Assembly: GCA_001513045.1 (NCBI GenBank)
Contig: LFSB01000010.1
Span: 127,791 to 182,084 of the forward strand
Reading direction: 5' to 3'
DNA: 54,294 bases
DNA from: Clostridiales bacterium DTU089
Lineage (GTDB): Bacteria > Bacillota > Clostridia > Oscillospirales > Acutalibacteraceae
Shown piece after piece: positions 47,117 through 49,408 of the stretch (position 1 is its first letter; every line of letters starts with the position of its first letter). The notes beneath the pieces are model-generated. The model did no database searches and had not been told where the DNA came from. It worked only from the letters and a program-made list of their open reading frames with translations. A program made the position numbers and the translations under genes.

Positions 47117-47207
47117 TACGGGCAAAAAAATAACAGAAAGGCAGCGGTACAGGGCACAAAAACGGTTTTACAACGCTTGAATGCTTTATGTATTGCAGAT
47201 TGCACAG

Positions 47208-47981
47208 ATGGAACTTACAGACCTCAGACTCGCGGTGCTTATTGACGCGGATAATGTATCTCACACATACGTTAAGGAGATGCTTCAGGAGATAGCACGC
47301 TACGGCACCCCCACAATAAAAAGAATTTACGGAGACTGGACGCAGCCCAATCTGTCCGGCTGGAAAAAAATCCTGCTTGAAAACGCGGTAACTCCGGTTC
47401 AGCAGTACGCATACACTCAGGGGAAGAATTCTACGGATTCCGCCATGATAATCGATGCTATGGATATCCTCTACACCGGTAAGGCGGACGGCTTTTGCAT
47501 AGTATCGAGTGACTGCGACTTTACACGTCTGGCAACAAGACTTCGCGAGGCGGGCGTAAAGGTTATAGGCATGGGGGAGAAGAAAACTCCGCAGCCGTTT
47601 ATCGCCTCTTGCGATAAATTTATATACCTTGAAATACTCATGCCGCAGAAAACCAAGAAGGCCTTGCCCAAGAAGGAGAAAAACACGCATTCCGGTCCGG
47701 AGGAGCACGAGACAGTTAAGCAGGAGAAAAAGCTGCCGGAGGATATAGTTGAGCTTATAGAAAGCTCGGTCGAGGACCTTGCGGATGACGCAGGCTGGGC
47801 GTATCTCGGCGATATAGGAAATCTTCTGCTTAAAAAATGCCCGTCATTTGACAGCAGAAACTACGGCTACCGCAAGCTGACGCAGCTTATGGCGGCGGTG
47901 GGAACGCTTGAAATAGACCAAAGGGACACCGGAAACAAGACGGTAAAACACATCTATATAAGGCTGAAATCCGTTGGTTAA
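47208..47981 (+). CDS. NYN domain protein with an OST-HTH (LOTUS) domain
   Basis: A 257-residue protein. Residues 1-150 form a NYN/LabA-type PIN-like ribonuclease fold: VLIDADNVS, GKNSTDSAMIIDAMD and VSSDCDFTRLATRLREAG hold the metal-binding acids. Residues 180-255 are an OST-HTH/LOTUS domain (IVELIESSVEDLADDAGWAYLGD and YGYRKLTQLM), which binds RNA in eukaryotic relatives such as MARF1. Function in bacteria is unknown; RNA processing is the likely guess. The ATG at 47208 matches family N-termini; an in-frame ATG at 47181 also exists and neither has a good ribosome binding site. Confidence 0.85.
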   Translation: MELTDLRLAVLIDADNVSHTYVKEMLQEIARYGTPTIKRIYGDWTQPNLSGWKKILLENAVTPVQQYAYTQGKNSTDSAMIIDAMDILYTGKADGFCIVSSDCDFTRLATRLREAGVKVIGMGEKKTPQPFIASCDKFIYLEILMPQKTKKALPKKEKNTHSGPEEHETVKQEKKLPEDIVELIESSVEDLADDAGWAYLGDIGNLLLKKCPSFDSRNYGYRKLTQLMAAVGTLEIDQRDTGNKTVKHIYIRLKSVG

Positions 47982-48006: not shown

Positions 48007-48023
48007 TTGTGCATCATGCACAA
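48007..48023. repeat. Perfect palindrome upstream of the small-protein pair
   Basis: TTGTGCA (48007-48013), TCA, TGCACAA (48017-48023). It is followed by A residues forward, so it is not a forward terminator; it could be an operator about 35 bp above the -35 box, or a reverse-direction terminator. Confidence 0.5.
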
Positions 48024-48059: not shown

Positions 48060-48087
48060 TTGACACGGCGAGAAAATGTGGTAAAAT
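48060..48087 (+). promoter_or_regulatory. Strong promoter of the small-protein pair
   Basis: A consensus TTGACA (48060-48065), 16-bp spacer and extended -10 TG-G-TAAAAT (48079-48087); the best -35 plus extended -10 in this part of the window. Confidence 0.75.
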
Positions 48088-48151
48088 TGATAATGTATTA
48101 ACATGCTATGCATTTAGTATACGCATTTTTCGAAGAAAGGAGGATACTAAA

Positions 48152-48382
48152 ATGCTTCAGTCAATTTATGCACTGCTTGCGAACTACGGACTTGACGTTC
48201 AGGATATAGCAAACGCCATGAGCTCGCTTATCACTACGTCAATAGACCCCGATACCGGTGAAAAGGTTTTCGGCGGCCCTCTCGCTCCTCTTGCGAGCAT
48301 GCCTGTTGTAGGGGAGATCCTCGAACTCTTCGCCAGCTTCGCACCTGTTGTTACAACAACGGTTGAGAGCACAATTGCTTAA
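48152..48382 (+). CDS. Small acidic protein of unrecognised family, copy 1
   Basis: A 76-residue protein I cannot assign. It has an amphipathic start (MLQSIYALLANYGLDVQDIA), a loop with DPDTGEK, a second hydrophobic helix (VGEILELFASFAP) and a Thr-rich tail (VVTTTVESTIA). There is no Cys, no signal peptide and just one Lys; net charge is strongly negative. The coding call rests on a near-perfect AAAGGAGG, a strong dedicated promoter, a terminator after the pair, and similarity to its neighbour in LANYG and in LFAxxAPxxTxxxxTxIA. It has no resemblance to a bacteriocin leader or toxin-antitoxin pair that I recognise. Confidence 0.8.
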   Translation: MLQSIYALLANYGLDVQDIANAMSSLITTSIDPDTGEKVFGGPLAPLASMPVVGEILELFASFAPVVTTTVESTIA

Positions 48383-48426
48383 CTTTTGCAGGTTAACTGA
48401 AATTATGAAAAAGGAGGTCTGTCACA

Positions 48427-48615
48427 ATGTTAGACCAGTTATGGAGCGTTCTTGCCAATTACGGCATAAGCATCGATGCAATATCCGAGTGGTTTGAGAA
48501 GGCAATGTCCACCCTCGCACCCCTTCAGGACACTGAGGTTCTCAGCACCATTATAGCTCTGTTTGCACAGCTTGCCCCCACCACCACAGAGGTTACCACG
48601 ACCTTCATTGCTTAA
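48427..48615 (+). CDS. Small acidic protein of unrecognised family, copy 2
   Basis: A 62-residue paralogue of the preceding protein: MLDQLWSVLANYGISIDAIS aligns with its first helix, and ALFAQLAPTTTEVTTTFIA with its end; the middle loop is about 15 residues shorter. It is acidic and Cys-free, lacking a signal peptide. AAAAGGAGGT sits before the ATG. The gene is 44 nt downstream of copy 1 with no terminator between, so the two are co-expressed, and it ends at a strong terminator. Tandem duplication with retained ends implies both are used, perhaps as two parts of one assembly. Confidence 0.8.
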   Translation: MLDQLWSVLANYGISIDAISEWFEKAMSTLAPLQDTEVLSTIIALFAQLAPTTTEVTTTFIA

Positions 48616-48626
48616 ATGAAAAAATC

Positions 48627-48657
48627 ACGGCGCGGAGTTTCCGCGCCGTATTTTTTT
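48627..48657 (+). terminator. Terminator after the small-protein pair
   Basis: CGGCGCGG (48628-48635) with CCGCGCCG (48641-48648), 5-nt loop, then TATTTTTTT. Confidence 0.92.
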
Positions 48658-48682: not shown

Positions 48683-48711
48683 TTGAAATATGCAAGGCAA
48701 TGTGTTATTAT
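48683..48711 (+). promoter_or_regulatory. Promoter of the lipoprotein gene
   Basis: TTGAAA (48683-48688), exact 17-bp spacer, TATTAT (48706-48711), the same hexamers and spacing as the ftsZ promoter. Confidence 0.7.
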
Positions 48712-48748: not shown

Positions 48749-49408
48749 ATGAGACGTTGCTTTTCATATCTTTCGCTGCTTGTTGCGGCGTTGCTTATAT
48801 TTTCTTTGTGCGGTTGCGGAGACGGAAGCACGCGGGGCGGAAGCACCGCTGCGTCCTCAACCACCGAGACAGTTGGAGCTCCTCCCTCGAGAAGCGATGA
48901 GTTGAATCCCGGCTCTACCGAAGATGCCTCCGGCGACTCCTCCGGGGATTCTGTAAGCACAAGAGCGCCTTCGGGTCATTCGGGGAATCTTGTCGTAACA
49001 GGTGACGAGACAAACGAAATAGTTTATGATGACGGCACGGTGCGCGCGGTGATAACGGTTGAAAAAACAGGCGACAACATCATCACGACGGATCGCGAAA
49101 ATAAGTACATAAAGGCGATTGTGGAGAAGTACAAAGTAAATCCGGATTATCTCGTGGCGATATATACCGAACCCGAGAGCGACAACAACATGGTCTATGA
49201 GTTTGACGGTGCTTTAAAGGATGACGGCACTTATCTGAGAAGTCCCGACAATATGGTTCGTCTTTATACGGTTACTGCCGACTTGAAAATCGAGAAGGCT
49301 GAGGCCGACGTGAGTGTCAGAAACCTTAAAAAGTGGTTTTCCGTTCAGCTTGCCAAGGGCATTATTATGGAACAGCATCCGGATGTATTTGATGTTCCGG
49401 AAAAATAA
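48749..49408 (+). CDS. Predicted lipoprotein of unknown function
   Basis: A 219-residue protein with a lipoprotein signal peptide: RRC, a hydrophobic core and LCGC, with Cys23 as the likely lipidated residue. A Ser/Thr/Gly-rich low-complexity stretch (about 28-85) leads to a compact domain (about 90-215) with DDGTVRAVITVEKTGDN, a helix ENKYIKAIVEKYKV, and YLVAIYTEPESDNNMVYEF. I do not recognise the domain. GAGG lies 8 nt before the ATG at 48749; an in-frame GTG at 48740 overlaps it. It has its own promoter. The C-terminal helix is followed by the S10 promoter region with no evident terminator. Confidence 0.8.
   Translation: MRRCFSYLSLLVAALLIFSLCGCGDGSTRGGSTAASSTTETVGAPPSRSDELNPGSTEDASGDSSGDSVSTRAPSGHSGNLVVTGDETNEIVYDDGTVRAVITVEKTGDNIITTDRENKYIKAIVEKYKVNPDYLVAIYTEPESDNNMVYEFDGALKDDGTYLRSPDNMVRLYTVTADLKIEKAEADVSVRNLKKWFSVQLAKGIIMEQHPDVFDVPEK

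Follow-up and report, generated by a model that had tools for sequence, protein, structure and literature searches.

A gene for a small, acidic, Cys-free protein and the gene that follows it, here named A2, form a conserved two-gene unit, which we found in a 54,294-nt stretch of DNA from Clostridiales bacterium DTU089 (the window) and in related genomes. The side-by-side occurrence of the two genes in several genera suggests that their products work jointly at the cell envelope. In our preferred reading, to which we give a probability of about 0.38, they make up an envelope module that has not been described, and the small protein is probably a leaderless peptide, active at membranes and perhaps exported, that acts with A2.

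In the window, two such small ORFs are located on the plus strand shortly 5′ of the S10 ribosomal operon, between a gene for a protein with NYN and OST-HTH/LOTUS domains (47181..47981, plus strand) and A2 (48749..49408, plus strand). ORF A (48152-48382) encodes 76 aa and is classed, from its homologues, dN/dS and a structural model, as a leaderless acidic small protein of the A-type; ORF B (48427-48615) encodes a divergent paralogue of 62 aa that lacks the middle stretch. Both ORFs had been called by the first-pass annotation with the same lengths and places. BLASTP showed that they are homologous (E 7e-9, with the same residue in 20 of 65 columns), and they share ML..LANYG near the N-terminus, of which LANYG had been recognised before, and the ending LFAxxAP. 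The longer ending reported for both, LFAxxAPxxTxxxxTxIA, is complete in B, but A has S for the last T. The proteins are very acidic and free of Cys, as had been described, with net charges of -7 (A) and -6 (B), and no signal peptide was seen in either by eye. An AlphaFold model of A, built with 20 family rows, predicts helices at residues 2-11, 16-26, 45-48 and 51-62, a hairpin formed by strands 28-31 and 38-41, and a disordered Thr-rich tail (residues 68-76), at a confidence that is only moderate (mean pLDDT 71.8, pTM 0.47). Hydrophobic moments were likewise moderate (0.30-0.52), and in the alignment of A with B the hairpin stretch is missing from B.

Each ORF is preceded by a strong ribosome-binding site, AAGGAGG for A (48137..48143, plus strand, 8-nt spacing) and, from the sequence, AAGGAGGT for B (48411..48418, plus strand), in agreement with the near-perfect sites noted earlier; of the window's ORFs with 28-120 aa that start with ATG, those with a Shine-Dalgarno match of at least 7 are A, B and two ribosomal protein genes. 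The extended -10 promoter and the terminator claimed for the pair were also located: a promoter-like site (48060..48087, plus strand; TTGACA-16-TAAAAT with TG) has 11 of 12 consensus matches, and an intrinsic terminator-like hairpin lies 3′ of ORF B (48627..48649, plus strand). A2 has a separate promoter-like site on its 5′ side (48683..48711, plus strand; TTGAAA-17-TATTAT with TG). Since a 1.7-kb stretch gave 3 promoter-like sites where chance would give 2.1, their count alone is insignificant. The 17-bp palindrome pointed out upstream of the pair is present at 48007, but palindromes of this kind (2 in the window versus 0.95 in shuffles) are at chance level, and in the 300 nt 5′ of the 19 copies from relatives the nearest match still had 5 mismatches of 16; the palindrome was therefore rejected as an operator. 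The suggestion that the pair is highly expressed gained no support from codon usage, as CAI values were 0.64 for A and 0.69 for B, compared with 0.66-0.79 for eight ribosomal genes and a median of 0.60 for 76-codon pieces of other genes, 28% (A) and 16% (B) of 197 such pieces equalling these values. Codon usage of A and B is thus slightly above average, and very high expression is not supported.

A profile search over the genus, which comprises 22 genomes, detected the small-protein family in 19 of them, counting that of the window, with a consensus of approximately MLDSIWQLLANYGLD..EIA..I.SL......Y.GTLA...DFP.IG.VL..FADFAP followed by a variable, often Thr-rich tail. Of these 19 genomes, 17 have one copy, and two copies are present in the window's genome and in G151, in which each has its own promoter-like and terminator-like site (by eye); a second match in G150 (E 0.43) was left out of the count. 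With two copies in 2 of 19 genomes only, tandem paralogues were rejected as a conserved unit, and the idea of a two-component system of paralogues was not supported. In the tree, B and the single copy of G150 stand apart from the 19 others on long branches (support 97/87). In our preferred reading, B is a divergent extra copy in the window's lineage and not a required partner of A. The three genomes of the genus in which the profile had no match were G152, G161 and G169; A2 was likewise not found in G152 and G161, and in G169 A2 is present with a TTG-started acidic ORF of 49 aa just upstream. For 8 of the 10 named relatives, the stated source was the ruminant gut (roe deer, water deer, yak, buffalo, goat and cattle).

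All 19 copies from the 18 relatives carry a Shine-Dalgarno match of 7-8 nt, and these copies together with the window's two have net charges of -5 to -11 and no Cys. Pairwise dN/dS, a check that the first-pass annotation had proposed, ranged from 0.08 to 0.35 in 28 pairs from three groups of relatives, the MGDMLV clade among them; these ratios, which are not near one, indicate that the family is under purifying selection. In the two within-genome pairs, synonymous sites were saturated. In the order as a whole, matches to the first profile came, apart from the window's genome, from 7 of 295 genomes, and all of these were weak (best E 0.006). A wider profile, the alignment of which includes G076 and G056, reached a G076-like protein of 90 aa in G606, a 46-aa relative at another place in G056 and, weakly when each is taken alone (E 0.001-0.014), proteins of 49-54 aa in G637, G043, G590, G261 and G182; 7 of its 22 matching genomes were taken as chance, the match lying inside a frame of at least 284 aa in 5 and having internal stops in 2.

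For the members tested, Pfam and NCBIfam gave no match above cutoff and PHROGs no match with E under 0.5, consistent with the initial statement that no family was recognised, and a search of PDB gave no significant match for the small protein. No description of the family was found in the literature, judged from search results alone. The A/B family thus appears to be new in the libraries searched, and its mechanism is one that we infer. A phage or mobile origin was rejected, given the PHROGs result and the failure to find the small protein (by peptide pattern) in viral contigs, in which the 3′ hairpin described below was not found either (by 24-mer).

A2 has a lipoprotein signal (LFSLCGCG), a Ser/Thr-rich linker and a conserved C-terminal domain. 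In all 34 A2 proteins examined, the N-terminus is a lipoprotein signal or a transmembrane (TM) segment; the lipobox pattern matched in 10 of the 34, and the A2 of G169 looks similar by eye. The C-terminal domain had no significant match in Pfam (5 members) or in a PDB profile search, and A2 had none in NCBIfam (28 members). A second A2-like C-terminal domain was noticed in the window's genome on a dockerin-bearing, secreted-looking protein (L114:182-1573, contig C43), the gene of which is upstream of an apparent glutamate 5-kinase gene (by eye).

Conserved neighbours had been named as a point to check, and A2 was the next mapped gene downstream of the small gene in 19 of 19 genomes of the genus and likewise at all 7 loci from two other genera. 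For counting, a small ORF was required to have 33-95 aa, a ribosome site of at least 5 at 4-11 nt, a net charge of -2 or below, no Cys and at least 40% AILMFVW, and to end in an interval of some 490 nt that precedes and overlaps the start of the A2 open frame; these criteria, acidity among them, were set after the loci had been looked at. Such an ORF was found directly upstream of A2 at 32 of 37 loci, as against 0 of 273 control genes (other genes of at least 150 aa in the same loci, from a simple gene finder) and 0 of 275 when exactly the same stretch was searched. Since most of the 37 loci had been found via the small protein, the fair subset consists of the 12 found via A2 alone (G043, G060, G056, G013, G098, G169, G219, G289, G613, G656, G730 and G765), at 8 of which the ORF was present, versus 0 of the 58 control genes there. 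As to the loci that did not count, G765 has a 35-aa ORF beside A2 with a weaker ribosome site (4), the small gene of G156 is present but too far from A2, the two genes are far apart in G056, and A2 of G013 and G060 has no small neighbour. The 37-locus set omits a partial G006 match, all A2 matches weaker than 2e-6 and the dockerin-linked A2-like gene on C43, which has only 181 nt of contig upstream, with no small ORF seen there. Seven A2 loci were found in genus g98, all with a small neighbour, which at 4 of them comes right after an apparent rplL; the g98 peptides (35-48 aa) share position, size, charge and pattern with A and B but align poorly with either, so that common descent is unproven.

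The genes farther out are more variable. In the genus, genes for an AI-2E family transporter (PF01594; 45174..46361 in the window, plus strand) and a CpsB/CapC family protein (PF19567; 46367..47116, plus strand) are upstream neighbours at 19 of 19 loci; in the two further genera, the transporter is near at 4 of 7 loci and CpsB at none of the 7. Beyond the small gene and A2, the context included the S10 operon, rplL, an aminotransferase-like and an NAD-synthase-like gene (names by eye). While the context changes, the pair itself is thus kept. The S10-Clostridia ribosomal leader RNA (RF03136; 49555..49635, plus strand), which precedes the S10 operon in the window, is given as context only. Among the 32 mapped loci, the NYN and OST-HTH/LOTUS gene occurs only in the window and in G182, a genome of another genus, in which it lies between the AI-2E transporter gene and the small gene. 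In G056, where A2 is followed by an AI-2E transporter gene, a hydrophobic ORF of 39 aa was also noticed some 1.8 kb downstream of that transporter gene (L109:9058-9177); its Shine-Dalgarno match is 8 nt long.

By our proposal, A and B would be leaderless, acidic, amphipathic small proteins that form a module with A2, which would be anchored outside the membrane. The small protein would bind the membrane through the amphipathic helices predicted in the model, may leave the cell without a signal peptide, by analogy with the phenol-soluble modulins, and would act at the cell surface with A2, which may bind, anchor or neutralise it. Leaderless export is proposed because the conserved domain of A2 is expected outside, so that a direct partnership needs the small protein to be outside as well; no exporter was recognised by eye at the locus. 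The early hunch of a surface role fits A2, with its lipoprotein signal or TM segment, but gained no support as to export of the small protein.

If the small protein is not exported, it may act at the inner face, and this is the main rival to the exported-peptide reading. It would then be a peripheral inner-membrane protein that does not leave the cell, covers or senses the membrane from the cytoplasmic side, and modulates the TM segment of A2, the AI-2E permease or the CpsB-type protein. The predicted amphipathic helices, the acidity and the lack of a visible export signal are consistent with this, as are the permease and CpsB genes upstream throughout the genus and the permease at 4 of 7 loci elsewhere. 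However, it is A2 that is present at all 7 loci of the two other genera, which lack CpsB throughout and the permease at 3, and in the 10 of 34 A2 proteins with a lipobox anchor, processing would leave no TM segment to be bound from inside. We consider an inner-face role conceivable, though rather doubtful.

The proximity of a peptide to a surface protein, the separate promoter-like sites and the existence of A-type and B-type versions could also point to a leaderless peptide of the bacteriocin kind, against which the lipoprotein A2 would give immunity. Leaderless bacteriocins have no leader, amphipathic helices and an immunity-type neighbour. Against this stand the net negative charge of A and B, the occurrence at one locus in most of the genus (19 of 22 genomes), with the same neighbours in 19 of 19, in place of the patchy distribution of an accessory trait, and the finding that no processing genes were recognised beside A and B. 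In addition, the divergence of the peptides is only a little faster than that of A2, mean identities (peptide vs A2) being 0.52 vs 0.57 in the genus (7 genomes), 0.55 vs 0.58 in g44 (5 genomes) and 0.40 vs 0.45 in g98 (7 genomes), with the reverse in one g76 pair (0.70 vs 0.64). A bacteriocin is on these grounds improbable.

Examination of the small-gene flanks in relatives revealed two further conserved elements. On the upstream side, a dyad TTCY-N5-RGAA is present at 15 of 21 copies, versus 0.16 expected from mononucleotide shuffles; the distance from its start to an extended -10 (TRTGNTA) is exactly 30 bp at every one of the 15. Counting G150, whose site lies farther upstream, 16 of 19 genomes have dyad and extended -10 at the small gene. 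In 20 of the 22 genomes this combination was found, 26 times in total, and a reversed control pattern was found 0 times. Ten of the sites lie elsewhere, and 6 of these precede the gene for a secreted-looking protein some 480 aa long (L159, L160, L172, L174, L178 and L179; 1050-1501 of the oriented locus); of three such proteins tested, two had a dockerin domain above cutoff, and the third an SH3 domain above cutoff and EF-hand matches below it. It is possible that the small gene and these secreted-looking proteins have a shared regulator in six genomes. The window's genome had no dyad/-10 match, and the small-gene promoter there is of the TTGACA type.

On the downstream side, GTGAATTATTGCAATAGTTTTCAC, 24 nt in length, follows the small-gene stop codon in 12 of 22 genomes, in 11 of them without mismatch and in the twelfth with 2 mismatches, and occurs once per genome, only beside the small gene, between its stop and terminator (L040:6862-6885, with equivalents in 11 further genomes of the genus, e.g. 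G157:C34:93861-93884). Next to the terminator it is predicted to form a hairpin with a folding energy of -6.5 kcal/mol (z about -2.4), and the two changes in G168 keep the pairs. A known RNA family was rejected, since among six loci only the S10 leader (five) and one sub-threshold match were obtained, and base pairing between hairpin and 5′ UTR, considered by eye, was dropped because it was not kept. These properties, together with the invariance of only 7 of 61 third codon positions in the same 12 small-gene copies, would suit a dual-function RNA, in which the hairpin regulates something and the peptide is secondary; but 10 of the 22 genomes, among which are that of the window, G150 and the five of the MGDMLV clade, had no match to the hairpin, and the protein is under purifying selection in all three groups tested, that clade included, which makes such an RNA quite improbable.

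An extended form of our preferred reading, more speculative and in our judgement unlikely, would be a core, vertically kept system of the Oscillospiraceae, in which an exported leaderless amphipathic peptide is recognised by a dedicated A2, with a hairpin at the 3′ end of its own mRNA and a promoter type in common with secreted dockerin-type proteins, as a new route of envelope control or kin sensing. More generally, an orphan pair of tiny ORFs has become a testable module of a small protein and one partner, together across genera despite changing surroundings. Small proteins of this sort are easily missed by annotation, and the candidate partner A2 makes the function testable, while the invariant 24-nt hairpin and the promoter dyad with its fixed spacing provide two handles on control in uncultured gut Clostridia.

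Among known systems, the corynebacterial PorA and PorH lack a signal peptide, and the corynebacterial envelope differs from that of the group hosting A and B, in which, to our knowledge, a mycolate envelope is not expected. PorA and PorH are described as very small polypeptides, thought to be helical, with genes in tandem in the corynebacteria listed, C. jeikeium excepted (PMC5944148). The tandem arrangement of two small proteins favours a hetero-oligomeric channel of this kind, which is nonetheless very improbable because two copies are present in only 2 of 19 genomes and the sole match to the PorACj model had an E of 0.68 in one relative, no family match being obtained.

Staphylococcal phenol-soluble modulins are made without a signal peptide. 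In A and B none was seen by eye, and helices are predicted with a mean pLDDT of only 71.8 and moments of 0.30-0.52. The beta-type modulins are small secreted amphipathic helical peptides with several genes per operon (PMC4585213), and the modulins are exported by the ABC system Pmt (PMC5080381). The modulin family models gave no significant match, the nearest being PSM epsilon (E 0.023, 7 residues, one relative); since this match failed and export is proposed only, A and B are not filed as modulins. In contrast to the modulins with their Pmt-type exporter, no exporter was recognised by eye beside A and B, which are also longer, have in A a hairpin in the middle, and are accompanied by a conserved surface partner, A2.
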